From contig DAHUYK010000040.1 of assembly GCA_027315245.1 (NCBI GenBank), forward strand, positions 1-36,426: DNA of 36,426 nucleotides. Reading direction: 5' to 3'. Made by a program: the position numbers and the translations under genes. This stretch comes from Vulcanimicrobiota bacterium. Its GTDB lineage: Bacteria > Vulcanimicrobiota > Vulcanimicrobiia > Vulcanimicrobiales > Vulcanimicrobiaceae. Shown here piece by piece: positions 9,829 through 24,404 of this stretch (position 1 is the stretch's first letter; each line of letters opens with the position of its first letter). A model generated the notes under the pieces. The model saw only the letters and a list, made by a program, of their open reading frames with translations. It was not told where the DNA came from and ran no database searches.

Positions 9829-10016
9829 TTGCGCCGCGCGAGCTTTTCTTCAAAAAAGCGCAGCCAACCGCGGACGAGACGACGGCGATCGCCGCTGCAG
9901 CATCGATCGTGTTGAGCCCTGAGCGCAAGGAGCGCGCCGTGAGATCAAATGCGAGTGCCTGGCGGCGGGCCGGTCGCGAGGAATCCGTCGGCTCCGGGAA
10001 CACTCTTTTGGACTGA
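9825..10016 (+). CDS. Small acyl-CoA carboxylase epsilon-like subunit (63 aa)
   Basis: This 63-aa ORF is linked to its neighbours by overlap on both sides. Its GTG overlaps the fabI stop (GTGA), and its TGA shares one base with the pccA ATG (TGATG). The sequence has two short blocks seen in actinobacterial acyl-CoA carboxylase epsilon subunits (AccE/PccE, PF13822). KAQPTADETTAIAAAASIV matches the xGxPTxEExAAxxA block, and SAWRRAGREE matches the C-terminal Trp/Arg block (SxWxxAGRxE). Epsilon subunits bind and activate the alpha-beta carboxylase complex, and being encoded between pccB and pccA fits that job. The assignment rests on pattern memory only, since the protein is too short for certainty. 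Confidence 0.65.
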   Translation: MIAPRELFFKKAQPTADETTAIAAAASIVLSPERKERAVRSNASAWRRAGREESVGSGNTLLD

Positions 10017-11776
10017 TGTTTCGCAAACTGCTCATCGCAAATCGCGGCGAGATCGCGGTGCGCGTCATTCGCACGGCGCACGAGATGGGCATCGCATGCG
10101 TTGCCGTGTACTCGGAGGTGGATCGCGGCGCAACGCACGTGCGCATGGCCGACGAAGCGTATCTGCTCGGCGCCGCGCCGCCGTCCGAGAGCTACCTCAA
10201 TGGCGATCGCCTGATCGCGGTCGCCGCGCGCGCGAATGCCGAGGCGGTCCATCCCGGCTACGGCTTTCTGGCGGAGAACGCGTCGTTCGCGCGCAGCGTC
10301 ATCGGCGCTGGGCTGACGTGGATCGGCCCGCACCCCGACGCGATCGACGCCATGGGTGACAAGCTTCGCGCTCGCCGTGCTATGGAGAGCGCCGGCGTTC
10401 CGTTCGTTCCAGGAGGCACCGATGCACTCGCGGATGCGGCCGCGGCGCGAGACGCCGCACGCCGTTACGGATTGCCTCTCGCGCTCAAGGCTTCCGGCGG
10501 AGGCGGCGGCAAAGGGCTCAAGGTTGCGCACACGCTCGACGAGGTGGACGCGGCATTTTCGACGGCGTCGCGCGAAGCTCAGGCGTACTTCAAGAATCCG
10601 ACGCTCTATGCCGAACGTTATCTCGAGAATCCCAAGCACGTCGAGCTGCAGATTGTCGCCGACCGGCACGGGAACGTGCTGCACTTCGGCGAGCGCGACT
10701 GTTCGCTGCAGCGACGTCATCAGAAGATTTGGGAGGAGGCTCCCGCATGCGTTTGCGAGCGCGTGCGCGAGGGCATTCGCGAAGCGGGCGTTCGCGCGGC
10801 GCGCGCGATCGCATACGACTCCGTCGGAACGATCGAGTTCCTCGTAGCGAATGACGCATTCTATTTTCTGGAGATGAACACGCGCATCCAAGTCGAGCAC
10901 ACGGTTACCGAGATGGTGACGGGGTTCGACCTCGTGCGCGAGCAGATTCGCGTCGCCGCGGGCGAGGCACTCGGCTACGAACAGAGCAGCGTCGCACTAC
11001 GCGGCGCCGCTATCGAAGGCCGCGTCAACGCCGAGGATCCCGCGCAAGGATTCCGGCCGGCACCGGGAACCGTGCGAGCCTATCGTGAGCCGTCAGGGCC
11101 TGGGGTGCGCGTCGATTCCGCCGCGTTCCCCGGCTTCACGGTCGTCGGCGATTACGACTCGCTCATCGCCAAGCTCGTCGTGTGGGCGCCGACGCGCGCA
11201 GAGGCGATCGCACGGTTTGCGCGTGCGATCGACGAGTTCGAAGTCACCGGCGTTCCTACGACGCTCGCGATTCTGCGCGCGCTCTGCGACGAACCCTCCG
11301 TGAGAGACGCAAGCTACGGGACCGCAACCCTCGAGGAGTTCGCGAAGGCGTGGACACCGGCATCGCAGGAGGTCGCTCGACCGGGCGCCTCGGGCGCGCA
11401 GCACGTCTTCAGCGAAACCGTTGACGTCGAGGTCAACGAAAAGCTCTACCGCGTACGATTTCCGCACGGCGTCGCTGGGGGAAGCGGAGCGCGAAAGGCG
11501 CCGCGGGTTCCCAAAAGAGACGGCGCGAACGCCGCGTCCGGCGGCAACGAGATCCGCTCCCCGATGCACGGCATCGTCGTCGAGATCTCCGTCGCTCCCG
11601 GCGAATCCGTGGAACAGGGGCAGCTCGTTGCCGTCGTCGAGGCGATGAAGATGATGAACGAGATACGTGCCCACCGCGCGGGACGCGTTCGTGCGACGCA
11701 CGCCGCTGCGGGCGCGACCGTTGAGGGAAACGCGACGCTCGTCACCATGGACGAACGAGAGTCCGTCAGCGAGTGA
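10016..11776 (+). CDS. pccA: Acyl-CoA carboxylase biotin carboxylase/BCCP alpha subunit
   Basis: This 586-aa protein carboxylates its own biotin with ATP and bicarbonate and hands the group to PccB. The biotin carboxylase part (residues 1-~445) has [24 protein letters not shown], the Gly-rich ATP lid [12 protein letters not shown], the active-site block [20 protein letters not shown] and [16 protein letters not shown]. After a shortened linker comes a biotinyl domain (residues ~510-580) with the biotin-lysine motif VEAMKMMNE. It is shorter than typical PccA (~650-700 aa) and resembles actinobacterial AccA. Its ATG shares one base with the stop of the epsilon-like gene. A 112-nt gap follows before the mutase. 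Confidence 0.95.
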
Positions 11777-11888
11777 GAATGATGCGATCGGCGATGAAGG
11801 CCGGCGGTCCCCAACTTCTACGCACCCAGTAGCCGTCGATCGCGACCCGCTGCGAGGCCTTCGTAGCGCCTCGCGGAACCAACCGGGC
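11777..11888 (+). other. Spacer between pccA and the mutase gene
   Basis: This is the only sizeable gap within the propionate operon (112 nt). It contains a 17-codon ORF beginning [10 protein letters not shown] just after the pccA stop, without clear homology, and no obvious terminator. The mutase frame is open back into pccA, so a longer mutase start cannot be excluded. Confidence 0.3.
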
Positions 11889-13487
11889 ATGGCAGAGAGA
11901 GCGCCGCGCGGCGCGCGCGAACGCAATGGATCGGGCATACCGCTGTGCGGCGCTTATGACGGCGTCGAAGGACCGCAGCACGATCTCGGCGCGCCCGGCG
12001 CCTATCCGTTTGCGCGCGGCATCCACCCGAGTATGTATCGCGACCGCCTCTGGACGATGCGGCAGTACGCGGGATTTGCGACGGCCGCGGAGTCAAACGA
12101 GCGCTATCGCTACCTCCTGGTGCAGGGCCAGACCGGCCTCTCCGTCGCATTCGACCTTCCCACGCAGCTCGGCTACGATTCCGATGCGCCGCAGGCACGC
12201 GGCGAGGTCGGTAAGGTCGGCGTCGCCATCGACTCGATCGAAGACATGGAGCAGCTTCTCGAAGGCATTCCTCTCGACCGGGTGACGATCTCCATGACGA
12301 TCAACGCGCCGGCGACGATTCTTTTCGCGTTGCTGCTCGCGGTCGCGCGCCGGCGCGGCACGCCGTTCTCGGCCCTCGGCGGCACGATTCAGAACGACGT
12401 CCTCAAAGAGTACGTCGCGCGCGGAACGTACATTTATCCGCCCAAGCCGTCGTTGCGCCTCGTGACGGACGCAATGGGCTACTGCGTCCGCGAGGTTCCG
12501 CAGTGGAATCCCATATCGATCTCCGGCTATCACATCCGCGAAGCGGGATCGACCGCCGTCGAAGAGATTGCGTTCACGCTCTCCAACGGCAAGGCGTACG
12601 TGCAGGCCGCGCGGGATGCAGGGATCGGCGTCGGAGCGATCGCGCCGCGCATCTCCTTCTTCTGGAACGCGCACAACGATCTGTTTGAAGAGGTCGCGAA
12701 GTTTCGGGCCGCGCGCTATCTCTGGGCGCACGTCGTTCGCGACGCGTTCGGGTGCAGCGATCCAGGCGCGCAGCGCATGCGCTTTCACGTACAGACCGGC
12801 GGATCGACGCTCACCGCGCAGGAGCCGGAGAACAACGTCGTCCGCGTGACGCTGCAGGCACTCGCGGCCGTACTCGGCGGCACGCAGTCGCTCCACACGA
12901 ACGGCAAGGACGAGGCGCTTGCGCTTCCGACGCAGGAGAGCGCGAAGGTCGCGCTGCGTACACAGCAGATCATCGCCTACGAAAGCGGCGTCACCGACGT
13001 CGCCGATCCGCTCGCCGGCTCCTACTACGTCGAATCGCTGACGAACGCCCTCATCGAACGTGCCGCTGCACTCATGGCCGAGGTCGACGCGCTTGGAGGC
13101 GCAGTTGCAGCCATCGAGAGCGGCTGGATGCAGCGCCGCATCGCCGATTCCGCATACGCCGCACAGCAGGCGGTGGAGCGAGGCGAGACCGCGGTCGTCG
13201 GTGTCAATCTCTTTGCGGAGCAATCTACTGCACCGCCGCCTCCGCTGCAGCGTATCGATGCGCGGGTCGAACGCGAGCAGGCTGAGCGCGTGCGCGCCTT
13301 TCGTGAGCGGCGCGACGGCCCTGCGATGCGCATCCGGCTCGAGGCGATACGGCGCGCAGCGGAAAGCGACACAAACCTTCTGCCTGTCTTCGTCGACGCG
13401 GTCGACGCGGGCGCGACGCTCGGCGAGATCTGCAACACGTTGCGCGACTCTTTCGGCACCTATCGCCCGGCCCATACTTTAGCATGA
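11889..13487 (+). CDS. mcm: Methylmalonyl-CoA mutase, catalytic (N-terminal domain) subunit
   Basis: The enzyme isomerises (R)-methylmalonyl-CoA and succinyl-CoA using adenosylcobalamin. The 532-aa protein carries only the TIM-barrel substrate-binding part. Visible blocks are [99 protein letters not shown], and the terminal [15 protein letters not shown]. The B12-binding domain with DxHxxG is absent, so this is the large subunit of a two-part enzyme whose partner is outside the window. The ORF track starts 74 codons upstream; the ATG at MAERAPRG fits family length better. The stop overlaps the epimerase start (ATGA). Confidence 0.93.
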
Positions 13488-13903
13488 GGGAATCGTGGCC
13501 CCTCGACCACGTCGCGATCGTCGTCGCGGATTTGGAGCGCAGCGTTGCGCTCTACACCGAGCAACTCCGATTCGCGCAACTCTATCGCGAGACGATCGCC
13601 GACCAAGGCGTCGAAGCCGTCGGCTTGAAAGCCGGCGACTCCGTCATCGAGCTGCTTCGCCCGCTCGACGATGCATCACCGGTCGCGCGTTATCGCGGCG
13701 GCGCCGCGTCGAAGCTGCACCACGTCGCATTTCGCGTTGAAGACATCGAGACGACGCTAGCGCAACTGAAGGCTGACGGCATACGCCTGATCGACGAGAA
13801 GCCGCGCAGTGGAGCACACGGCAATCGCGTCGCCTTCCTGCACCCTTCTTCGACAGAGGGCGTGCTCATCGAGCTTTGCGAGCCTCTTGAACCGCCGCGG
13901 TAG
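13484..13903 (+). CDS. mce: Methylmalonyl-CoA epimerase
   Basis: The epimerase interconverts the (S)-methylmalonyl-CoA made by the carboxylase and the (R)-form used by the mutase. The 139-aa VOC-fold protein has two beta-alpha-beta-beta-beta modules. Metal-ligand regions are visible: [11 protein letters not shown] at the start, [12 protein letters not shown] at ~80, and GVLIELCEP near the end. Length is normal for bacterial Mce (~135-150 aa). The start ATG overlaps the mutase TGA by 4 nt, so the two are translationally coupled. This is the last gene of the propionate operon, followed by a REP-like repeat and a convergent desaturase. Confidence 0.94.
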
Positions 13904-13960
13904 GCGGCTCCCTCGACTTCGGCGCTGCGCGCCTACGCTCGGGATGACAACGCTGACGTT
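13904..13960 (-). repeat. REP-like intergenic repeat, copy 1
   Basis: The 57-nt convergent spacer carries, on the minus strand, the 18-bp core TGTCATCCCGAGCGTAGG (plus 13932-13949). It is followed by an imperfect hairpin (GGCGC-GCA-GCGCC). The same 18 bp occurs inside the amiE-like gene at 18813-18830. Repeats with a TCATCCCGAGCG core are common scattered intergenic elements in many bacterial genomes. Here it may serve as the bidirectional terminator between mce and the desaturase. Confidence 0.6.
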
Positions 13961-13962
13961 CG

Positions 13963-14853
13963 CTAGCGTATGGAGCGGACGGTGCGCTGCACGAAGACCG
14001 GGCGAAACGCGAAGCGTTCCATCGTCGCTTTCGTCGGCACGCGAACGCGGTCTGCCAAACGCAGCATTCGCAAGAACTTGATGTGCCACCACGTGACGTC
14101 GATCTCGAACCACGCCATACCGTGACGGGCCGAGAAGGGGAATGCATGATGGTTGTTGTGCCAGCCTTCTCCGAACGACACGAGCGCTACCCACCACGAG
14201 TTCGTCGAACGGTCGCTCGTTTTGAAGGTGCGATAGCCAGCCCAATGCGATGCGCTGTTCACGAACCACGTCGTGTGGTAGGTGAAGATGAGGCGTGCGA
14301 AGATGCCCCACACGACCCACGGCCACCCGCCGATGGAAAATAGGATGAGCGCCAGGCCGACTTGGAGCGGAACCGCCAAGTACGAGAGCGCTCGATAGTA
14401 TGGGTCCCGCACGAGGTCGGGGCAGTGGCGCGCGCGCTCCAACGCTGACGGAACGTAGCGGTTCTTGAAGAGCAGCCACTTCATGTGCGCCCAGGTGAAT
14501 CCGCGGCGCGTCGTATGCGGGTCGCCCTCGTGATCGGAGTGCGCATGATGCACGCGATGCGTCGCGACCCATTCGATGGGTGCGCCTTGCATCGCCAGTA
14601 CACCCAGCGTTGCCACGACGTACTCTAAGCCCCAACGCAGACGAAGGCTGCGATGCGTGAGCGTCCTGTGGTATCCCAGCGTCACGCCGATCGCCCCGGT
14701 AACGTATGCGAGCCCCGCAGCGACCGCGAGTGCAGACCATGAGAAGAACGCCGGCCAAAACACGGCGAGCGCACAGACGTGAATGGCTGCAAGAGCCACG
14801 CCGTTTGTCCAGTTCGGGCGACGGGGCCAGAGTCTACGTTTTATGAGTTGCAT
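13963..14853 (-). CDS. Membrane acyl-CoA fatty-acid (delta-9 type) desaturase
   Basis: This is a 296-aa integral-membrane di-iron desaturase that introduces a double bond in long-chain acyl-CoA, tuning membrane fluidity. All three histidine boxes are present: GYHRTLTHRS (HX4H), HRVHHAHSD (HXXHH) and GWHNNHHAFP (HXXHH). Hydrophobic helices lie at ~20-60 and ~160-200 (VPLQVGLALILFSIGGWPWVVWGIFARLIF). Length fits the OLE1/DesC-like bacterial group. The start MQLIKRRLWPRRPNW has positive charges before the first helix. It is convergent with mce and separated from the recycling operon by the hairpins at 14881-14910. Confidence 0.94.
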   Translation of the reverse strand: MQLIKRRLWPRRPNWTNGVALAAIHVCALAVFWPAFFSWSALAVAAGLAYVTGAIGVTLGYHRTLTHRSLRLRWGLEYVVATLGVLAMQGAPIEWVATHRVHHAHSDHEGDPHTTRRGFTWAHMKWLLFKNRYVPSALERARHCPDLVRDPYYRALSYLAVPLQVGLALILFSIGGWPWVVWGIFARLIFTYHTTWFVNSASHWAGYRTFKTSDRSTNSWWVALVSFGEGWHNNHHAFPFSARHGMAWFEIDVTWWHIKFLRMLRLADRVRVPTKATMERFAFRPVFVQRTVRSIR

Positions 14854-14912: not shown

Positions 14913-16481
14913 CTAGAAGTTCGGAGCGAGCCCAACCTCGATCTTTGTCTCGAACGTTCGATCCCAGGGCAGCGCAATCGTCATTGCCGCGATATGATAC
15001 CCCGGGTAGAGCTCCGTAAGGATCGCTTGCGCGTCGGCCCAAAGGAGCGAGCGGTTCTCCTCTCCGACGACCGCGGCATCTGCCGGCAGCAAGATCATGT
15101 GGTCGATGCCGCGCGCCGTGAGTTGCGCGTCGAGCAGCGGGCGCACTTCATCGTGAAAGGCGTAGTCGTCGACGAAGCGCATGAAGGTGAACTCCCGATG
15201 GGCGATGCCGTCGTACGTTCCCGTTCGGCGTCCGGCTCCTGCCGCGATCGCTTCGGCGAGTGCGGTTCCCACCGTATTCGCGTTCGTGTTCCAGGAAGCG
15301 TACGCGTCGAGCTCTGATGCGATGCCGTCGGCGAGGATGCGCCGTGCAAAGGCTCCTTGCTCGGCGTAACCCGGATTGCCGCCGCCGGCGAGATAGCTGA
15401 GGTCGGCAAGCGCAACCGAACGTCCCTGTACGAGCGCCTTGCGCATTGCTGCCACGAAAGCATCGTCCTGTTCAGGCGTCGTTCCCGGGACGCGCACGAA
15501 GAGCGCGATCTGCGGATCGGCCTCGTCTTGCACGCCGCCGCAGAGCGTGATGAGGTGTCCGATCGCAACGGAGATGGGGCCGTACTCAAGCGGATCCTGC
15601 GCCAGCGCACCCTCCGGCGTGGAGTACTCGACGGAGACCCGCGGCGTCCACGAGGCGCGTCGTGCGAGAGCGTGGGCGACGAGCGCCATGCCGAGTTCGT
15701 CTGCGCCGGGCTCGATCGTGGCGCGGGACGCGACGCCGAGGCGAATGATATCGTTCTCGAGCACGATGCGATCCGGCACGTCGATGCCGACGGGGCCCGC
15801 GTCGTCTTGCCCGAGGACGAGCCGGTCGAGCGTCGTCGCAGCGCCCGTAACGAGGAGACGGTCGACAGCGAGGTCGCGCGCCCGCGTGGCGATATACGCG
15901 TCGAACGCCGGCCCCGCGAGCGCACGCAGATTCGCCGCCAAAGCTTCCTCGCTTGGCAACAGAGGATCGTGCAGCTTCGCGTATTCCCACAGATACTGCC
16001 AGATGGGACCGGCGGCAAAGTAACCGTTGCCCGGCCCTATCGCGGGAACGCCGGTGGGCGCCAAACGCATGACGGTGCCGAAGACCGCGATCCAGCTGCG
16101 CGGGTGCGATGCTCGCAGTTGCCCGAGCTCGTGAAGGCGGAAGTACGCGTCGGCATAGGTCGTGCCGGGAACGCGTGACGCGAGCAGGCCGCCGTAGGCG
16201 AGCATATCGCTCGAGATGACGTACGCGGCTGCATCCTGCGGCGCTTGCGCATTGAGCCAGCGGATGAGATCGTCAGGAGAGCCCGGCTGCAGGTAGTGAC
16301 CGAGCATCGCTGCGGGCGGCGTCACCACACGGCGTCCCGCGATGCGTCCCAGGAGCACGGGCAACTGGTACGTGACCGGACGGTCATCGAGCGGAACGAA
16401 GACGATCGGTGCGGGGGCCGCCGCAAAGGCACGTACGGGAAGGAGCGCCGCGAGCACGAGCAGCGCTCCGAATGCCCTCAC
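14913..16481 (-). CDS. Secreted DUF4127 family protein coupled to peptidoglycan recycling genes
   Basis: This 522-aa protein belongs, by its motifs, to the DUF4127 family (PF13552), which has no established function known to me. A clean signal peptide (VRAFGALLVLAALLPVRAFAAA) predicts export. Conserved-looking blocks are IVFVPLDDRPVTYQLP at the mature N-terminus, YVISSDMLAYGGLLASR, IEPGADELGMALVAHAL, LSYLAGGGNPGYAEQG and WNTNANTVGTALAEAI. Acidic residues in DDRP and ADEL could be catalytic, but that is speculation. The start GTG overlaps the murQ TGA by 4 nt (GTGA), making it the last member of a six-gene coupled chain. A role in handling cell-wall sugars or muropeptides outside the cytoplasm is inferred from context alone. 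The ORF track's 867-aa version reads through murQ in the wrong frame. Confidence 0.85.
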   Translation of the reverse strand: MRAFGALLVLAALLPVRAFAAAPAPIVFVPLDDRPVTYQLPVLLGRIAGRRVVTPPAAMLGHYLQPGSPDDLIRWLNAQAPQDAAAYVISSDMLAYGGLLASRVPGTTYADAYFRLHELGQLRASHPRSWIAVFGTVMRLAPTGVPAIGPGNGYFAAGPIWQYLWEYAKLHDPLLPSEEALAANLRALAGPAFDAYIATRARDLAVDRLLVTGAATTLDRLVLGQDDAGPVGIDVPDRIVLENDIIRLGVASRATIEPGADELGMALVAHALARRASWTPRVSVEYSTPEGALAQDPLEYGPISVAIGHLITLCGGVQDEADPQIALFVRVPGTTPEQDDAFVAAMRKALVQGRSVALADLSYLAGGGNPGYAEQGAFARRILADGIASELDAYASWNTNANTVGTALAEAIAAGAGRRTGTYDGIAHREFTFMRFVDDYAFHDEVRPLLDAQLTARGIDHMILLPADAAVVGEENRSLLWADAQAILTELYPGYHIAAMTIALPWDRTFETKIEVGLAPNF

Positions 16482-17365
16482 GACTCGAGGACCCGGCGTA
16501 ATCGGCCTTGTGCCAGCTCGAGCAGCACGCGCGCAGCCGGCGCGCTGCACTCGCGACGTGCCATGACGATCGCGACCTTGACGCTGCCTTCGGCCGATTC
16601 GAGCAACGCTGCGGCTTGCAGCGCGTTGACGCCTGCAACGCGTTCGACGATGCGCCGCGCGCGCGCATGCAGCTTTTCGTTCGTCGCGACGAGGTCGACC
16701 ATGAGATTTTCGTAGACCTTTGCGCGCAGCACCATCACGGCAGTCGAGATGGTGTTGAGCACGATCTTCTGCGCCGTGCCGGCGCGCATACGCGTCGAAC
16801 CGGCGATCGGCTCTGCGCCGGTGCACACGGCGATCGTGCGTTCGGCGGCGTCGGCCAGTGGGCTCGGGACCGTGTTCACGATCGCGGCCGTGAAGCATCC
16901 CTTCGCGCGCGCCGCCCGTAGTGCAGCGACGACGAAGGGGGTGCCTCCGCTCGCTGAAAGGCCGATGACAGCGTCCGCGGGCTCGACGTGGAGCATGGCG
17001 TCGATCCCGGAGCGCGCATCGTCCTCTGCGCCTTCGACTGCTCGCAAGAGTGCAGTCGTTCCCCCCGCAACGTGCGCGCAGACGAGGCCGGGCTCCGTTC
17101 CGAACGTCGGTGGCATCTCCGCGGCGTCGAGCATCGCGAGGCGGCCGCTCGTACCGGCTCCGACGTAATGCAGGCGCCCGCCGCGTTCGAGCGCGGTGAC
17201 GACGCCGTCGACGACGCCGGCAATCGCACGGCGCTGGGCGAGCACGACGTCGGCGACGTCGCGTTGCGCAAGCACGAGCCGCTCGACGAGCGCATCGCTC
17301 GCGAGCCGGTCGAGGTCGGCGCCAGCCTGCGTCATCGTCTCGGTCTCGGGCAGATCGCCGCTCAC
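16478..17365 (-). CDS. murQ: N-acetylmuramic acid 6-phosphate etherase MurQ
   Basis: MurQ cleaves the lactyl ether of MurNAc-6-phosphate, giving GlcNAc-6-phosphate and D-lactate in the cytoplasm. The 295-aa length matches E. coli MurQ (298). SIS-domain signatures are clear: LHYVGAGTSGRLAMLDAAEMPPTFG, the catalytic-glutamate segment AVEGAEDD, VIGLSASGGTPFV, GSTRMRAGTAQKIVLN and ENLMVDLVATNEKL. The start is taken as the GTG at 17365, which overlaps the anmK stop (GTGA). This gives VSGDLPETETMTQAGADLD, aligning with the family N-terminus. It is the product-forming step after AnmK in the same operon. Confidence 0.95.
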   Translation of the reverse strand: MSGDLPETETMTQAGADLDRLASDALVERLVLAQRDVADVVLAQRRAIAGVVDGVVTALERGGRLHYVGAGTSGRLAMLDAAEMPPTFGTEPGLVCAHVAGGTTALLRAVEGAEDDARSGIDAMLHVEPADAVIGLSASGGTPFVVAALRAARAKGCFTAAIVNTVPSPLADAAERTIAVCTGAEPIAGSTRMRAGTAQKIVLNTISTAVMVLRAKVYENLMVDLVATNEKLHARARRIVERVAGVNALQAAALLESAEGSVKVAIVMARRECSAPAARVLLELAQGRLRRVLES

Positions 17366-18504
17366 GACGCGCCGCCGCATTCGCGCTCGACGCGTTCGAG
17401 CAGCGTGCGCAGGTCGTGCGGTGCGATGGCACCGAGCACGGCGCTGCTCCGGGCACCGGTGGCGGCGCGTACGTTCGCGGGGCGACCGCGAAGCGTCTCG
17501 TATCCGAGCACGGCAAATGCCAAAGCCTCTTTCGCGTCGGCCCGAATGCCCATCACGTCCGAGCGTTCGACGCGCGCCCGCGGAAGCCGTGCGCGCAAGC
17601 GCGCGAGGAGTTCGGGATTGAACGCGCCGCCTCCGGAGACGATGACGAACGCCTCCTCGAAACCGGCAACGCGCAGGGCATCGGCAATCGTGGCTACGGT
17701 CAGCTCCGTGAGCGTCGCCGCGGCGTCTTCGAGCGAGAGCCGCGCGAGGTCTCCGTGCGCCTCGATGAAGTGCATTCCGTAGCGCTCGCGACCCGTCGTC
17801 TTCGGCGGCGGCTGGGCGAAGTACGGATCGCGCAGCATCGCTGTCAGCAGTCCGCTGTGGACGCTCCCGCGGGCGGCAAGGCTTCCCTCTGCATCGAAGT
17901 GCATGGCGCCGCCGGTGCGGTCGCGGACGAGCGCGTCGAGGAGCATGTTGCCCGGTCCGGTATCGAATGCAACCGGCGAGGCACCAGCTGCCAGGAGCGT
18001 CACGTTCGCGATACCGCCCACGTTGAGCGCGACGCGGTCCTCGCCGGAATCTGCGAGGAGGAGCGCGTCGACATAGGGCACGAGCGGCGCGCCGTGGCCG
18101 CCGGCCGCAGAGTCCGCGGAGCGAAAGTCGTAGCAGACGGTCGCACCGACGGCTTCGCGGATGACGAACGCATCGCCGATTTGTAGCGTGACGTGTGCGG
18201 CACCATCGTGGAAAAGCGTCTGTCCGTGCGAGGCGACGTAGTCGACCCGCTCTCCGGCGAGCGTCGCGACTGCGGCGGCGGCGAAGGCCACCCCCACTTG
18301 GTGGTGCAGGCGCGCGCACTGCGCAACCGTACCGGCGTTGGGTGGCAGCGCGGCGCGCAGTGCCGCTTCGAGCTGCGGATCGAGTGCATGCGTCGTAAAG
18401 CGTAGGACATCGAGAGCGTACGACGAGCCCCGTGGACGAACGTCTACGAGCGCAGCGTCGATGCCGTCGAGCGACGTGCCGCTCATCAATCCAAGTGCGA
18501 TCAT
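17362..18504 (-). CDS. anmK: Anhydro-N-acetylmuramic acid kinase AnmK
   Basis: AnmK opens and phosphorylates 1,6-anhydroMurNAc to MurNAc-6-phosphate, the MurQ substrate. The 380-aa protein (E. coli 369) shows the ASKHA-fold kinase motifs. These are ALGLMSGTSLDGIDAALVD at the N-terminus, ASHGQTLFHD, TLQIGDAFVIRE, VCYDFRSADSAAGGHGAPLVP, ALNVGGIANVTLL, FDTGPGNMLLDA and VSGGGAFNPELLARL. The ATG at 18504 overlaps the amiE-like TGA by 4 nt (ATGA). Upstream residues in the ORF track are out-of-frame extension. AnmK implies that the cell makes anhydro-muropeptides with lytic transglycosylases, as Gram-negatives do. Confidence 0.96.
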   Translation of the reverse strand: MIALGLMSGTSLDGIDAALVDVRPRGSSYALDVLRFTTHALDPQLEAALRAALPPNAGTVAQCARLHHQVGVAFAAAAVATLAGERVDYVASHGQTLFHDGAAHVTLQIGDAFVIREAVGATVCYDFRSADSAAGGHGAPLVPYVDALLLADSGEDRVALNVGGIANVTLLAAGASPVAFDTGPGNMLLDALVRDRTGGAMHFDAEGSLAARGSVHSGLLTAMLRDPYFAQPPPKTTGRERYGMHFIEAHGDLARLSLEDAAATLTELTVATIADALRVAGFEEAFVIVSGGGAFNPELLARLRARLPRARVERSDVMGIRADAKEALAFAVLGYETLRGRPANVRAATGARSSAVLGAIAPHDLRTLLERVERECGGAS

Positions 18505-19517
18505 CGCTCCACCGCTTCGACGCACGCATCGTAAAAGGCCGCGCGCAAATCGCGAACGTCTCTGCGCCCGAAGTACACGGCGTTCGTGAGCAGCACGCCC
18601 TGCAGGTCGCGCGAAGGATCCGCCCACACGCACGTTCCAACGAAACCGGTGTGTCCGAAGCTCTCCATCGAAAATGCGCGCCCGCAAGAGTTCTCGTCGT
18701 TCGTTTTCAGTGCCCAGCCCAAACCGCGACGGAGCACCGGGTCGTACGCCTGCTCGGAGACTGCGGCCCATACGATCTCTCGCGGCAGCGCGATGTGCCG
18801 GCCGCTTCGCTCCCTACGCTCGGGATGACAGAGCGCAAGATACACGCCGGTGAGCGCGGCCACGTCGGCAGCGGTGCCGAAGAGACCGGCGTGGCCGGCA
18901 ACGCCGCCCATAAGGTACGCCTTCTCGTCGTGCACGACGCCTTGCACGCGCCCGCGCCATTCGTCGTGCTCGGTGGCCGGAATAGCGGCACGCTCGCTCT
19001 GCCGAGGACGGAATCCCAGCGTCGGGCGTCCGAAGCACTCGTCCGCGAGCTGCGCGAGCGAACGCCGGTGCAGCCGTTCGAGGAGCATGCCGATGAAGAT
19101 GAAACCGAGGTCGCTGTAGAGGACACGCTCGCCTGGAGCAGCCACGAGCGGCTCGTGCTCGACGAATCGTTCGATGTTTCTATCGAGCAACAGCCGGTAG
19201 TCGGCGCCTGAGTTCATACCGGACGTATGGGCAAGCAGCATTCGCGGTGTGATGTCACGCTCCAGCGCGCCGTCGAGCGAGACGAGCCCGCGCCCGACGT
19301 CGCCGAGAAGCACCGTCGCGATAAAGAGCTTCGTGAGCGACGCAAGGTCGAAGCGCGTGTCGACGAAGACCGGCTTGCCAAGCGCATCGTCCCGCGTGGA
19401 GCCGTACGCGCGCTCGAAGAGGAGCCTTCCCTTGTGTTCGACGCGCGCGACCGCTGCCGTGAAGGCGCTCCCCTGCGCCGACGCAAGCAGCGCATCGACC
19501 GCATCGAACCGGCTCAC
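18501..19517 (-). CDS. Beta-lactamase-fold serine hydrolase, AmiE (YbbE)-like MurNAc-peptide amidase
   Basis: This 338-aa protein has the penicillin-binding/beta-lactamase class C fold. It shows SLTK (SxxK nucleophile) at ~60, YSDLGF (YxN-equivalent) at ~125 and GHTGFVG (KTG-equivalent) near ~295. The block GVVHDEKAYLMGGVAGHAGLF is typical of the family that includes Bacillus AmiE/YbbE, which cuts MurNAc from L-Ala. No signal peptide is visible, so it probably acts in the cytoplasm. Between nagZ and anmK it would supply the amidase step that AmpD performs in enterobacteria. Ordinary beta-lactamase or esterase activity cannot be excluded. A REP-like repeat has been inserted in frame (ALCHPERRERSGRH). 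The GTG start overlaps the nagZ stop. Confidence 0.85.
   Translation of the reverse strand: MSRFDAVDALLASAQGSAFTAAVARVEHKGRLLFERAYGSTRDDALGKPVFVDTRFDLASLTKLFIATVLLGDVGRGLVSLDGALERDITPRMLLAHTSGMNSGADYRLLLDRNIERFVEHEPLVAAPGERVLYSDLGFIFIGMLLERLHRRSLAQLADECFGRPTLGFRPRQSERAAIPATEHDEWRGRVQGVVHDEKAYLMGGVAGHAGLFGTAADVAALTGVYLALCHPERRERSGRHIALPREIVWAAVSEQAYDPVLRRGLGWALKTNDENSCGRAFSMESFGHTGFVGTCVWADPSRDLQGVLLTNAVYFGRRDVRDLRAAFYDACVEAVER
18800..18830 (-). repeat. REP-like repeat inside the amiE-like coding sequence, copy 2
   Basis: The minus strand reads TGTCATCCCGAGCGTAGG followed by GAGCGAAGCGGCCG. The first 18 nt are identical to the copy between mce and the desaturase (13932-13949). Here it is read through in frame and encodes CHPERRERSG in a surface loop between two otherwise normal hydrolase segments. 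The outer limits are approximate; only 18813-18830 is an exact match. Confidence 0.7.
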
Positions 19518-20506
19518 AGCGCAAGCGGTTCTTGCAGCTGCGTCCGCAGCGCGTGCATCCGCGCCGCAGCCTGGCGCAGTCGTTCGAGCGCGAGCACGCC
19601 GCGGCGTGCGTCGCGAACGATCCGCTCGACGATCTCGACCGCAAGGCCGGGAGCATGACTAACCGTGAGCGCGTCGGCACCCGCGGCAAGCGCTGCAACG
19701 GCCCCGTCGACACTGCCCGTACCGTGCGCGATCGCGCCCATCTCGAGACAGTCGGTGAAGCAGACGCCGCAAAAGCCAAACTCCTCGCGCAGCATTTTCT
19801 GCAGAATGCGCGGTGAGAGCGTCGCCGGCAAGGTTTCGTCGAGCGCGCGCACGACGACGTGCGCCGTCATGAAGGCGCGCGCGTGAGGCGCGACGGCCGC
19901 GAAGGGAACGAGGTCTCTTTCGCGTAGCGTCGCTTCGTCGTCGACGACGACCGGCAACGCCTCGTGTGAGTCTATCGTCGTCGCGCCATGGCCCGGGAAG
20001 TGTTTGAAGGTTGCGACGACGCCTCCGCCTTCCAATCCGCGCGCAAAGGCGCTCGCCATGCGCGTCACCGCGGCGGCATCCCTACCGAAGGAACGGTCGC
20101 CGATGACCTCGTTCTTCTCTTCGAGCGCAAGGTCGAGGACGGGGGCAAAGTTGACGTTACAGCCGGCGCGACGCAGATCGTACGCACAGCGCGCGCCCGT
20201 CGCCTCGGCGAGGCGCTCGTCGCCGGCCGCGCCGAGCGCTGCGGCCGCGGGCATCGGTGCAACACCGTTGCGCAGCCGCATGACACGCCCGCCTTCTTGA
20301 TCGATCGCCAGAATGGGTGCGATCTGCCCATAGCGCCCGCGAAGCCGATCGGTGAAGCCGCGCAGCTGCGAGAGCGTCTTCGTGTTGCGATCGAAGAAGA
20401 CGAAACCGCCGAAGGGATACCGCGCAAAGGTCGCATCATCGAGATCTTCGTCGAGCACGCCGGTGACGACGACCGATGCTGCGAGCCGCCGCAGATCAGC
20501 GGTCAC
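19514..20506 (-). CDS. nagZ: Beta-N-acetylhexosaminidase NagZ (GH3)
   Basis: NagZ removes GlcNAc from GlcNAc-anhydroMurNAc(-peptide) in the cytoplasm. The 330-aa single-domain GH3 protein matches Gram-negative NagZ length (~340). It shows PILAIDQEGGRVMRL, NFAPVLDLA, the family hallmark KHFPGHGATTIDSHEALP with the loop His, and FTDCLEMGAI containing the catalytic Asp nucleophile. No signal peptide is present. The GTG start at 20506 overlaps the ABC ATPase TGA (GTGA), and its own TGA overlaps the amiE-like start. It is the first dedicated muropeptide enzyme of the chain. Confidence 0.96.
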   Translation of the reverse strand: MTADLRRLAASVVVTGVLDEDLDDATFARYPFGGFVFFDRNTKTLSQLRGFTDRLRGRYGQIAPILAIDQEGGRVMRLRNGVAPMPAAAALGAAGDERLAEATGARCAYDLRRAGCNVNFAPVLDLALEEKNEVIGDRSFGRDAAAVTRMASAFARGLEGGGVVATFKHFPGHGATTIDSHEALPVVVDDEATLRERDLVPFAAVAPHARAFMTAHVVVRALDETLPATLSPRILQKMLREEFGFCGVCFTDCLEMGAIAHGTGSVDGAVAALAAGADALTVSHAPGLAVEIVERIVRDARRGVLALERLRQAAARMHALRTQLQEPLAL

Positions 20507-21531
20507 GGAATGGCAGCACCGCTGCGCGCATCGAAGCGGCGCACGTGCTGCGGCGGCAGCTCGAGTCCGAGTTCGTCGCCGGCTGCCCCGGGCTCGTCCG
20601 AGGCAATGCGCGCGACGATCGTTCCTCGCTCCGTGCGCAGGGTGAGAAAGGCGACGTCACCAGCCGGCTCCCTGCGCTCGACGCGACCGCGCAGCGGGGC
20701 GCCTGCGGCGATACGGATGCGCTCAGGACGTATGCCGGCGATCCACGGCCCGTCGTCGAGCAGGTTCATCGCCGGCACGCCGAGTGCCGACGCGGCTCGA
20801 ACGGTTGCCGGAGCATCGTAGACGCGTTGCGGTGGCCCGAGGTCTTCGAGGCGTCCGTCGACGAGCACGCCGAGCGCATCGCCGAGCATCATCGCTTCGG
20901 CATGGTCGTGCGTCACGTGCACGACGGGACCGTCGAAAACCGCACGCATATCACGCAATGCGCCGCGTACGCGCGCGCGCAACGCTGGATCCAGGTGTGC
21001 GAGCGGCTCGTCGAGCAGAAGCGCTCGGGGCGACGAGAGCAATGCACGCGCCAGAGCAGCGCGCTGGCGTTCGCCCCCCGAGAGTACCGCCGGCATGCGA
21101 TCGAGATATGCATCGACGTGCAGCGCGCGTGCAATCTCTTCGACGCGCTCGCTGCCGGCGCGATCGCGGAGTGCGAAGCGCAGGTTCTCTCGCACGCTCA
21201 TCGTCGAAAAGAGTGCGTCGCTCGCGAAGACGAGCGGGACGCGGCGCTCACGCGCGGGCAACGAGCGGATCGACCGCCCGTCGAGCGTCACCGATCCGGC
21301 GTGCGGTTCGACGAGTCCCGCGATCGCGCGCAGGAGCGTCGTCTTCCCGGCACCCGAAGGGCCAACGACGGCCAGTGTACGCCCCGGTTCCACATGAAAG
21401 CCGATGCCGTCGAGAGCCATCCGAGTACGCGGAGCACCCCCGTAGGCGTAGGACAGCCCCGCAAGGGTAAGCCCGGTGCTAGCGAATTCGGATGTACTGG
21501 GCGATGATGCGTCCGTGAACGACGCTCGCAC
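20503..21531 (-). CDS. Sugar-type ABC transporter ATP-binding protein (MalK/UgpC-like)
   Basis: This is a peripheral ATPase energising a membrane importer. All motifs are present: Walker A GPSGAGKT, signature LSGGERQRAALARAL, Walker B ALLLDEPLAHLDP, switch His VTHDHAEA, and a C-terminal TOBE-like region from ~WIAGIRPERIRI. This is the CUT1/MalK layout, which often serves sugar or oligosaccharide importers. No permease or binding protein is in the window, so the partner membrane proteins are encoded elsewhere. The start is uncertain. The ORF track uses 21582; conserved sequence begins only at LTLAGLSYAYGG, and GTG 21531 is my choice. Either way it overlaps the preceding gene by 50-100 nt. The stop overlaps nagZ (GTGA), so it may import cell-wall sugars. 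Confidence 0.85.
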   Translation of the reverse strand: MRASFTDASSPSTSEFASTGLTLAGLSYAYGGAPRTRMALDGIGFHVEPGRTLAVVGPSGAGKTTLLRAIAGLVEPHAGSVTLDGRSIRSLPARERRVPLVFASDALFSTMSVRENLRFALRDRAGSERVEEIARALHVDAYLDRMPAVLSGGERQRAALARALLSSPRALLLDEPLAHLDPALRARVRGALRDMRAVFDGPVVHVTHDHAEAMMLGDALGVLVDGRLEDLGPPQRVYDAPATVRAASALGVPAMNLLDDGPWIAGIRPERIRIAAGAPLRGRVERREPAGDVAFLTLRTERGTIVARIASDEPGAAGDELGLELPPQHVRRFDARSGAAIP

Positions 21532-21760
21532 CGACGTCAACGAACGTACCGCGGTGAACGTCGGCGATCGTTGCGTAGCCACCGTCGGGCTTGTCGACGT
21601 CCGTGCTCGGCGTCACCTGAACCGTGCGGTCGCCCGCCGTGGTGCGCACGACGATGACCGAGTTCGTATAGTCGACGCTCATGACGCGCCCGGTGAGCGC
21701 GAGCGGGAATACCGTGAGTGCCGCCACAAGCAGGCAGGCAGCGCAGAATCGCCCGATCAT
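21479..21760 (-). CDS. Small exported OB-fold-like protein (DUF5666-like)
   Basis: This 93-aa protein has a signal peptide (MIGRFCAACLLVAALTVFPLALT). The mature ~70 residues form an alternating beta pattern with GRVMSVDYTNSVIVVRT, QVTPSTDVDK and DVHRGTFVDVGASVV, ending IIAQYIRIR. This resembles the OB-like DUF5666 domain of many secreted bacterial proteins, whose role is unknown. A ribosome site (CTGGAG, 7 nt) precedes the ATG, and a consensus -10 TATAAT lies ~48 nt upstream. It is therefore probably the first gene of the recycling transcript. Its 3' end overlaps the ABC ATPase start. Confidence 0.7.
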   Translation of the reverse strand: MIGRFCAACLLVAALTVFPLALTGRVMSVDYTNSVIVVRTTAGDRTVQVTPSTDVDKPDGGYATIADVHRGTFVDVGASVVHGRIIAQYIRIR

Positions 21761-21807: not shown

Positions 21808-21813
21808 ATTATA
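21808..21813 (-). promoter_or_regulatory. Candidate promoter -10 box (TATAAT) for the recycling operon
   Basis: The minus strand carries a perfect TATAAT within an AT-rich patch. It ends 47 nt upstream of the small OB-like gene and overlaps the stop of the 109-aa ORF. No good -35 match is seen at 16-18 nt spacing (GAGGCG region). In a GC-rich background an exact -10 is notable, and the 5' leader would be ~40 nt. Confidence 0.45.
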
Positions 21814-22138
21814 AAACATCCCGAAGCAGCGCCTCGTACTCCTGCCGCGCCTTCGCCCCATCGTCGCCGCCGGCACGTACGCGCTCAACGAGCCGGCGGA
21901 GCTGCCCGACCGTCTCGTCGCCGGCACGCCGGCCGGAGATGACGAGGCGTAGCGCGATGAGGGCAAGCTCCGGCGTGCGTCCGCGCAACAGACGCAAGCC
22001 TTCATAGAAGGGACGCGCGGCGTCGTTTGGCGGCGGTTGTGCCACGAGCAGCTCGACGAGCTGTGCGCGCGCCGGCGCACCGTCGAGCAGATGCGCATCG
22101 ATGAGCGCTGCTTCCTTATTGACGTGCGGTGAGGACAA
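21809..22138 (-). CDS. Small hypothetical helical protein
   Basis: This 109-aa ORF begins inside the end of the TonB receptor gene (23-nt overlap, TTG start). I do not recognise it. It is rich in Leu, Ala and Arg with heptad-like helices (LVELLVAQ, FYEGLRLLRGRTPELALIALRLVISG, QLRRLVERVRAG) and resembles a small TPR-like helical repeat. A ribosome-like AAGGAAG overlaps the receptor stop codon, but the next in-frame standard start is not well placed, so the true start is uncertain. Position and strand suggest cotranscription with the receptor. It may be a genuine short gene or a GC artefact. Confidence 0.45.
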   Translation of the reverse strand: MSSPHVNKEAALIDAHLLDGAPARAQLVELLVAQPPPNDAARPFYEGLRLLRGRTPELALIALRLVISGRRAGDETVGQLRRLVERVRAGGDDGAKARQEYEALLRDVL

Positions 22139-24404
22139 GGCGAAAGCCCGCCGGCTCGATGGCGTACAGGTTCGTGGGGATGGGGCCGCTCACGCCGGCA
22201 TAGGGAACGCCGCCGCCGAGGACGGTAAACTTGCCTGCGGCGGCATCGGTGAGGTTCGTCGCTGCAACGGTGAGGTCGAGGCTCCCCACCGCGTGCCCGA
22301 CGGACGCATTCACGATGAGGAACGGACCGGCGTTGAGCTCGTTGTTGCGTCCACGATAGACCCCGTTCATTGCAGCATGCCACGGTCCATGCAGCCATGC
22401 GACGTCGAAGGATGCCTGCTGCGGGGGAATGTTGAGGAACTGTTCGTTGTTCACAAGGTCGCCGCCCGACGTCGGGTTCGAGACCGTCGAAGGAAGGTTG
22501 CGCGGGTATGCGACGTTGATGCCGTACGCAACGTGCGCGCTGAACTCGCCGATTCGCTGCCCCAGACGCAGCTCCGCGCCTTCGTAGACGGCGTTGCCCA
22601 CGTTGATCGGATACGCTTCGCACGGCGGCGTTGCGCTCGCACAGGCTCCCGCTGTTGCCTGCGCGAGCGGATAGAAGGTTTCGATTGGGTTGCGCAGGTT
22701 CGTACGATAGAGGGAGGCGTCGATCTGCGTGTTCGCGAGATGTTTGGAGTAACCGAGTTCGTACTCGGTCGCGTGCTCCGGCTGCTCGGCCGGATTTCCT
22801 TGCCCGACGTAGACCCCGTTCACGTCACGCGCCAGCGCCGCGAGTGGAAAGACGTATCGCTCGATGAGCAGCGGGGCACGAAAGCCCGTTCCCACCGAGG
22901 CATGGAGCGCCGACGTTCCATCGAGATCGTACGCGACGCCGAAGCGCCCATCAAGACTGCTACCGAACGTGGAGTACTGAGCGAAATACGCGCCGCCTTC
23001 GAGGTGAATGCGTTCCGTCGGAGAGTATTTGCCGCGGACGAAATAGTTGTGAATCTCCTGCGCAAGCATCGTTCCGATGAAATCACCACCGAGCGACTCG
23101 TGCCGTACGTATCCGCCGAATGCGATGAGGTAATCGTCGCCGTCACGCTCCCACCACAGGCTCAGGTTCTGCCGCCGGTCGGTGTGCGAGACGTCGTATG
23201 GAGAGACGCCGGAACCGGTGAACGTGATGCCGTCGTCGTCGAGGCTCGCGTCGGCGACGAGCGTCCCCGCGCCGAGCGGCGCGCGCGCGTGGAGATCGTA
23301 GGCGCGCAGGTCCTGTGTTAGGTTTGACGCACCAGGACCCGTGAAGTACGCTCCGGGCCCTTCTTGCGACGCGAAAACCGGAGCGTTCTCCGTGCCGCTC
23401 ATGTCGCGTGCGTTGCCCAGCGTGAAGATGCGCAAGCCGACATCCGATCGCTGCGACGGCGCATACGTGACGTTGAGGAGCGCGGTGCGAGCGCTAATCG
23501 TCGAGCCGAGATGCGTCGGCTGCGGTCCGGAGCAGCGCGACGCCGGCGGCAGCGCCGGATCGAATCCGCCCGTGCAGAGCATGACGTTCTGATCGACGTA
23601 GCCGTGCTGCTGCGTATCGTCGAGGGCGAATGCATAGCCGAAGGCGCCGTGCATTCCGGTTGCGTTCACCCACGCTTCGCTGCGTCCGAACGAGCCGACT
23701 GCGATCGATTCCGCGGCATGCGGCCGAAGCGTCGGATGCAGCGAGAAGAGATTCACCGCGCCGCCGATCGTGTTGCTGCCCTGCAGATCGATCGGCCCCA
23801 GTCCCTCGCTCACCTCGACGCCGCTGAACATCGAGAGGGGGAGCTGCGACACGTCGAGGTCGCCAGTGTTGCCGTCGTTGAGAACTTGGCCGTCGAGCAT
23901 GACGAGCGTTTCCGACGGGTCCGGTCCGCGTAATGCAACCGGCACCGGCGCGGTCGACGCGCCTCCGTCCGGACGCGCAAATGTGACCGACGGTACGCTG
24001 GCCAAGCCCTGAAGCACGTGGTCGAACCCGAGCGCCTCCATCTGCGAACGCGTAACGACGACGCTCGGCACGAACGCGTGCACGCTCAGCATTGCGCCGT
24101 TCACCCGCACCGTTGCAATCGTACGCAGCGCAGCCGTGTCGGCGGGCACGAGCGCGACGTCCATCGATTGATCGCCGTTGACCGCAAACGGACCGACCTC
24201 GACGCTCCGATAGCCTTGCGCGACGACGACGACCGTGACGCGACCCGGCGCGACCAGCACCGCGACGTCGCCGTGCGCATCGGTCGCGCCGTGGAGCGTG
24301 CGCTGCCCTTCGAGAACCGTGACGCTGGCACCGGAGACCGGACCGCCGGAGGTCGCATGCACGTACGCGTGCAGCGAACAGCACAGAGCCAGCAGAACGG
24401 ACAC
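22116..24404 (-). CDS. TonB-dependent outer-membrane receptor with N-terminal carboxypeptidase-regulatory-like domain
   Basis: This 762-aa protein is an active outer-membrane importer of unknown substrate. After a short signal sequence (MSVLLALCCSLHAYVHA) comes a CarboxypepD_reg-like beta domain (GGPVSGASVTVLEGQRTLHGATDAHGD, residues ~20-90). The plug follows (~110-230: FVPSVVVTRSQMEALGF, VALRGPDPSETLVMLDGQVLNDGN, VEVSEGLGPIDLQGSNTIGGAVN), then a ~500-residue beta-barrel with YELGYSKHL and C-terminal AGFRLVLTARQ. The regulatory-like domain is seen in SusC-like and some vitamin or metal receptors. The start is a GTG with an in-frame TAA four codons upstream. A strong ribosome sequence (AAGGAGGG) lies 31 nt too far upstream, so the start or a sequencing error deserves a check. 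The gene is preceded by a long hairpin. Confidence 0.9.
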   Translation of the reverse strand: MSVLLALCCSLHAYVHATSGGPVSGASVTVLEGQRTLHGATDAHGDVAVLVAPGRVTVVVVAQGYRSVEVGPFAVNGDQSMDVALVPADTAALRTIATVRVNGAMLSVHAFVPSVVVTRSQMEALGFDHVLQGLASVPSVTFARPDGGASTAPVPVALRGPDPSETLVMLDGQVLNDGNTGDLDVSQLPLSMFSGVEVSEGLGPIDLQGSNTIGGAVNLFSLHPTLRPHAAESIAVGSFGRSEAWVNATGMHGAFGYAFALDDTQQHGYVDQNVMLCTGGFDPALPPASRCSGPQPTHLGSTISARTALLNVTYAPSQRSDVGLRIFTLGNARDMSGTENAPVFASQEGPGAYFTGPGASNLTQDLRAYDLHARAPLGAGTLVADASLDDDGITFTGSGVSPYDVSHTDRRQNLSLWWERDGDDYLIAFGGYVRHESLGGDFIGTMLAQEIHNYFVRGKYSPTERIHLEGGAYFAQYSTFGSSLDGRFGVAYDLDGTSALHASVGTGFRAPLLIERYVFPLAALARDVNGVYVGQGNPAEQPEHATEYELGYSKHLANTQIDASLYRTNLRNPIETFYPLAQATAGACASATPPCEAYPINVGNAVYEGAELRLGQRIGEFSAHVAYGINVAYPRNLPSTVSNPTSGGDLVNNEQFLNIPPQQASFDVAWLHGPWHAAMNGVYRGRNNELNAGPFLIVNASVGHAVGSLDLTVAATNLTDAAAGKFTVLGGGVPYAGVSGPIPTNLYAIEPAGFRLVLTARQ

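Follow-up and report, generated by a model that had tools for sequence, protein, structure and literature searches.

A class-wide nagZ-amiE-anmK-murQ gene run with a predicted role in recycling peptidoglycan sugars in the Vulcanimicrobiota

Peptidoglycan recycling is known in detail for only a few bacterial groups. The Bacillus subtilis cluster murQ-murR-murP-amiE-nagZ-ybbC(namZ) encodes a NagZ and an AmiE that act outside the cell (PMC5061867), and AmiE is a PF00144 protein within this murQ-nagZ cluster (PMC5061867, PMC10653849). We analysed a stretch of 36,426 nucleotides from a Vulcanimicrobiota bacterium (contig DAHUYK010000040.1 of assembly GCA_027315245.1; hereafter the window) whose minus strand carries, in order, genes for a 109-aa protein, a 93-aa protein, an ATP-binding cassette (ABC) ATPase, nagZ, an amiE-like gene, anmK, murQ, and a DUF4127 gene (Table 1). 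The best reading of its central enzymes is a Bacillus-type amidase joined to the Gram-negative anhydro branch of the pathway. We consider it probable that the cluster is a translationally coupled operon for cytoplasmic recycling of the cell's own peptidoglycan sugars, a judgement that covers the recycling role and the order of the enzymes and leaves aside DUF4127 and the importer.

As in the B. subtilis cluster, MurQ, a PF00144 AmiE, and a glycoside hydrolase family 3 (GH3) NagZ are encoded together, and N-acetylmuramic acid (MurNAc) is led to N-acetylglucosamine 6-phosphate (GlcNAc-6-P). B. subtilis differs in importing MurNAc through the phosphotransferase system (PTS) protein MurP and in having no AnmK in its cluster, whereas in the window AnmK is central, the cluster has no PTS or MurR gene, signal peptides are absent, and namZ lies elsewhere. 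The pathway of E. coli and other Gram-negative bacteria (AmpG, AmpD, NagZ, AnmK, MurQ) shares the cytoplasmic logic of NagZ, AnmK, and MurQ; unlike E. coli, the window's genome has no AmpG, an amidase of another protein family, and the genes in one overlapping cluster. The isolate Vulcanimicrobium alpinus is Gram-negative, with a thin peptidoglycan layer and an outer membrane (PMC9758169). On a Deinococcus plasmid (CP029777) the cluster GntR-anmK-murQ-'esterase' likewise joins AnmK, MurQ, and AmiE-type genes by 4-nt overlaps, and a peptide ABC importer is alongside, but it has no adjacent NagZ or DUF4127, its own regulator, and another gene order. Three of the four central genes are adjacent in Paenibacillus (NagZ-AnmK-AmiE) and Truepera (AmiE-NagZ-AnmK), where, unlike in the window, MurQ and a kinase are elsewhere or differently placed and DUF4127 is several kb off or absent. 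Rhodothermus marinus encodes RmNag3, a NagZ-beta-lactamase fusion, together with AnmK and NagK and without AmpG (PMC6987092); it resembles the window in coupling NagZ to an AmiE-like domain and in lacking AmpG, but RmNag3 is a secreted fusion and the window encodes two separate, predicted cytoplasmic proteins in an operon.

AnmK is clustered with NagZ, MurQ, AmiE, or a kinase in Lentibacillus, Cohnella, Paenibacillus, Truepera, and Deinococcus. AmiE-type genes have been grouped with AnmK, NagZ, or MurQ independently in Deinococcus, Truepera, and Paenibacillus, which supports the recycling reading. An earlier note on this DNA, made from the sequence alone, had taken the layout to be unfamiliar; overlapping clusters in Deinococcota and Bacillota show that the kind of cluster is already known, and the class-wide combination and order without AmpG is a variant of it. 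In the open literature searched we found this variant nowhere described, nor any account of the cluster in Eremiobacterota. With a class-wide operon in which a Bacillus amidase meets the anhydroMurNAc branch and AmpG is lacking, the question of how such bacteria take muropeptides back becomes testable.

Domain searches backed every gene name that the earlier note had given. By sequence comparison, NagZ, the AmiE-type amidase, AnmK, and MurQ are all recognizable with intact catalytic motifs. NagZ matches PF00933 and scores 224 bits with NF003740 (NCBIfam cut-off 207), and its segments KHFPGHG...DSH and TDCLEMGA align to the Asp-His dyad loop and the nucleophile Asp of solved GH3 glucosaminidases. 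AnmK (PF03702, 342 bits) exceeds the cut-off of the NCBIfam equivalog NF007148 and aligns over its full length to the solved AnmK 3qbw, with FDTGPGN spanning the position of the catalytic Asp182 of Pseudomonas aeruginosa AnmK. MurQ scores 333 bits with NF003915 and is over the cut-off of both this model and NF009222; its LDAAEMPPTFG and AVEGAEDD align to 4s12 at both catalytic Glu segments of the SIS-fold etherase. The amiE-like protein (PF00144, 152 bits) has the motifs SLTK, YSD, VHDE, and GHTGFVGT, common to its homologues in the recycling clusters of Paenibacillus, Truepera, and Deinococcus. With the PF00144 fold, the SxxK, Y-x-N/D, and HTG motifs, and murQ and nagZ as companions, it is predicted to be a MurNAc-L-Ala amidase and is set beside B. 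subtilis AmiE by family.

Table 1. Position of the gene run and of the adjoining receptor gene in the window.
Feature	Position	Strand	Evidence or remark
TonB-dependent receptor	22116-24404	-	just upstream of the gene run; likewise placed in several genus members
109-aa small protein, conserved, heads the gene run	21809..22138	-	homologues likewise placed in many relatives
93-aa small protein, signal-like N-terminus, conserved upstream gene	21479..21760	-	homologues likewise placed in many relatives
ABC transporter ATPase, UgpC/MalK-like nucleotide-binding domain and TOBE_2	20503..21477 (about)	-	PF00005 and PF08402
nagZ, GH3 beta-N-acetylglucosaminidase, 330 aa, without signal peptide	19514..20506	-	NF003740
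amiE-like class-C serine hydrolase, predicted MurNAc-L-Ala amidase, without signal peptide	18501..19517	-	PF00144
anmK, anhydro-MurNAc kinase	17362..18504	-	PF03702
murQ, MurNAc-6-P etherase	16478..17365	-	NF003915
DUF4127 protein, signal-like segment at N-terminus	14913..16481	-	PF13552

AnmK was detected in 119 of 148 relatives, and up to 20 kb around it was taken from 60 genomes; the class loci (n = 48) are the window and those of 47 relatives (37 genera). The order and strand of NagZ-AmiE-AnmK-MurQ are kept in all 47 sampled class relatives, with the exception that MurQ lies ~7 kb further along in L031 and that additional genes precede MurQ in several members of a second family within the class. 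A ~250-aa exported protein without a Pfam match (L070:8850-9602 and other f3 loci) precedes murQ in seven second-family loci. The comparison of related genomes proposed in the earlier note thus returned a conserved gene order, not a scattered one, in every class relative sampled, and the note's guess at the phylum, Eremiobacterota, proved correct. No homologue of NagZ, AmiE, or MurQ was found near AnmK in 13 genomes from outside the class (12 from other classes of the phylum, 1 from outside the phylum). The cluster is ancestral and vertically inherited in the class. DUF4127 is present in 38 of the 48 class loci and absent from the loci of the f3 family. NagZ is ~480-540 aa long in most relatives and ~330 aa in the window's genus, where it has lost a C-terminal domain.

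Six consecutive genes with five 4-nt overlaps were all read in the sequence as the earlier note had described them (GTGA 20506-20503, GTGA 19517-19514, ATGA 18504-18501, GTGA 17365-17362, and GTGA 16481-16478). The range 14913-20506 given there holds five of these genes; the ATPase in its title falls outside, 20506 being the start of nagZ. The start codon of the ATPase is ambiguous, with the first GTG (21582) overlapping the upstream gene and the first ATG near 21420. An ABC ATPase lies immediately upstream of nagZ in 27/48 class loci and overlaps it by 4 nt in 24 of those 27; an overlap is possible at 26/48 nagZ-amiE, 34/48 amiE-anmK, 26/37 kinase-murQ, and 16/38 murQ-DUF4127 junctions. By a stricter count, separate from this tally, a 4-nt overlap is possible at 84/170 cluster junctions (49%), as compared to 33/166 (20%) of the remaining same-strand junctions of these loci. 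Because overlaps are enriched in the cluster over other same-strand neighbours, coupling is a conserved trend. Overlap alone is no proof of co-transcription, which we infer. Pfam searches with the 93-aa and 109-aa proteins that precede the ATPase gave no match.

In the proposed route, lytic transglycosylases would free GlcNAc-anhydroMurNAc-peptides, and an importer whose genes lie elsewhere, probably a peptide ABC transporter of the Opp type, would take them in. NagZ would then cut off GlcNAc, the AmiE-type serine amidase would take off the peptide, AnmK would open and phosphorylate anhydroMurNAc to MurNAc-6-P, and MurQ would split off D-lactate to yield GlcNAc-6-P, which NagA and a GlmM-like mutase encoded elsewhere in the genome could return to amino-sugar synthesis. 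Neither in the window nor in relatives do NagZ and AmiE show an evident signal peptide, and both are therefore probably cytoplasmic. On the substrate side, the genome encodes four SLT transglycosylase domains, and SLT transglycosylases produce anhydromuropeptides; MltG is found in nearly all relatives. On the product side, a NagA-like gene adjoins a PGM/PMM-family mutase. LdcA and the exo-muramidase NamZ are encoded outside the cluster. The namZ gene adjoins a menaquinone-biosynthesis gene (PF02621), away from the operon, in both the genome G012 (L238:8130-10186) and the window's genome (G000:C137).

Several observations weigh against this reading. AnmK and MurQ score below the cut-off for some of their equivalog models (for MurQ, TIGR00274 with 281 bits against 302), and the NagA-like protein is under its own equivalog cut-off. 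MltG (PF02618) was not found in this metagenome-assembled genome (MAG), which is 96% complete; its absence is probably an assembly gap. Since NamZ is also encoded, some MurNAc may enter through the non-anhydro branch. B. subtilis AmiE acts extracellularly on non-anhydro muropeptides, whereas a cytoplasmic anhydro substrate is predicted here. The cluster contains no importer, that is, no permease or sugar-binding protein, and an in-operon kinase present in relatives is missing from the window.

This BadF-type (PF01869) kinase separates AnmK from MurQ in 37 of the 48 class loci, and the relatives' in-operon protein matches the solved MurNAc/GlcNAc kinase 8zo3 (E=4e-23). Within the window's genus, G007 alone of the sampled members keeps it, and the window has lost it. 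A kinase gene merely left unannotated there is ruled out: anmK and murQ overlap by 4 nt, and the window's genome has a single full-strength PF01869 match (G000:C10), which is a distant paralogue. The earlier note had called the route to GlcNAc-6-P complete. This is so for the MurNAc half only: GlcNAc, once released, requires a kinase, whose gene is in the operon of relatives but missing from the window.

The same note had suggested a self-contained uptake system, and this is not supported by the searches for permeases, binding proteins, and AmpG, on which a cluster with its own importer was rejected. AmpG (TIGR00901) has no match in the genome, and 40 relatives gave only three weak matches below the cut-off. 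All six PF00528 permease genes of the genome lie on contigs other than that of the cluster; those examined are of the Opp, Pst, Mod/Wtp, and betaine types, with one pair being Opp-type, and no PF13416 sugar-binding protein was found in the genome. The best NCBIfam match of the cluster ATPase is UgpC with 228 bits, below the cut-off of 432, and no partner permease is evident in the genome. In Agrobacterium the Opp-type ABC transporter YejBEF-YepA stands in for AmpG in muropeptide import (PMC9790009). By analogy with this precedent for AmpG-free import, the Opp-type permease pair elsewhere in the genome is a candidate importer. In Deinococcus actinosclerus the anmK-murQ-amiE cluster adjoins peptide ABC importer genes.

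The TonB-dependent receptor gene next to the run was rejected as a part of the cluster, since the linkage is confined to some genus members. It enters the argument again if the genes are read as a self-contained system for scavenging external muropeptides, in which the receptor would pass them through the outer membrane, the ATPase would drive their import through the inner one, and DUF4127 would trim them in the periplasm, with the enzymes digesting them. The position of the receptor gene, immediately ahead of the run on its strand and alike in several genus members, fits such a system, as do the overlap of the ABC ATPase with nagZ in most loci that have the ATPase and the position of DUF4127 beside TonB/SusCD genes in one Acidobacteriota and one Bacteroidota MAG. 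The receptor is nevertheless outside the cluster except in those genus members, no permease or binding protein is nearby, the genome-wide counts of PF00528 and PF13416 genes offer no partner, and NagZ and AmiE are without signal peptides; we regard scavenging as unlikely. A general amino-sugar operon, with an AnmK homologue acting on another anhydro-sugar in the manner of levoglucosan kinases and an AmiE-like esterase or carboxypeptidase, appears quite improbable as well. Levoglucosan kinases are indeed AnmK homologues, PF00144 is functionally broad, among curated models the hydrolase scores best with PBP4B (78 bits, far under the cut-off), and DUF4127 is found in general sugar loci elsewhere. 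The best alignments of AnmK are nevertheless to bacterial AnmK structures, the MurQ reaction is known and very specific, and NagZ, AmiE, AnmK, and MurQ make up one route and are co-conserved in 48/48 loci.

The gene run could also reflect genome compaction, with 4-nt overlaps being ordinary in a GC-rich genome and functionally meaningless, given that a fifth of the other same-strand junctions in the same loci permit one too. The proportion in the cluster is 49%, however, and the gene order is kept over 37 genera while flanking genes change, so that compaction deserves hardly any credence; chance grouping is ruled out by the conservation over the 37 genera together with the overlap enrichment. 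Cytoplasmic recycling of the cell's own peptidoglycan sugars is the reading we retain, and the importer and DUF4127 are the parts most worth pursuing.

The widespread and uncharacterised DUF4127 family gains a defined pathway context from this locus. The window protein matches PF13552 with 314 bits over residues 26-514, a full-length domain match, and scanning genome contigs brought up 501 relatives from many phyla. Two Trueperaceae encode NagZ directly upstream of DUF4127, and several Paenibacillus have it no more than a few kb away. Other neighbours include flavin adenine dinucleotide (FAD) oxidoreductases of PF12831, a family that recurs beside DUF4127 in other phyla, sugar ABC importers, GH38 and GHL10 enzymes, SusCD, and N-acetylmannosamine-6-phosphate epimerase. 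A PF12831 oxidoreductase gene also adjoins the BadF-type kinase paralogue in the window's genome (G000:C10; L097:1833-3167, 3457-4383). The earlier note's 'secreted' label is plausible for the window protein, but the N-terminus varies among relatives, and those from other phyla have no signal sequence at their start. We found no mention of DUF4127 by name in the literature searched.

Two AlphaFold models of DUF4127 proteins have mean confidence (pLDDT) values of 90.9 (pTM 0.93; AlphaFold 2, window protein) and 94.6. The chain passes through strands and helices in alternation, and most of the invariant Asp, Glu, and Arg residues follow a strand, as in barrel enzymes. Fold searches of the PDB with both models gave no match at E<=1e-3, and the weak matches were to sugar-isomerase and glycosidase (fucosidase) barrels with a template-modelling (TM) score of about 0.25; because of this, DUF4127 was assigned to no family by fold. 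DUF4127 is likely a carbohydrate-active beta/alpha enzyme, and it may serve the same recycling pathway. We put forward only tentatively, as a possibility, the wider proposal that it is an uncharacterised barrel-like carbohydrate enzyme, possibly of a new glycoside hydrolase family, devoted to peptidoglycan turnover in Eremiobacterota, together with AmpG-independent anhydromuropeptide import that feeds a hybrid AmiE-AnmK pathway. One unnamed entry of a viral library (A0A346TNQ6, 693 aa) matches the DUF4127 model m08cd00d771d2 with E=1.5e-33.

Downstream of the gene run (window 10016-14853), most of the genus members sampled have a desaturase gene on the same strand, and many relatives have a convergent set of genes similar to those for methylmalonyl-CoA epimerase, mutase, and a biotin carboxylase.

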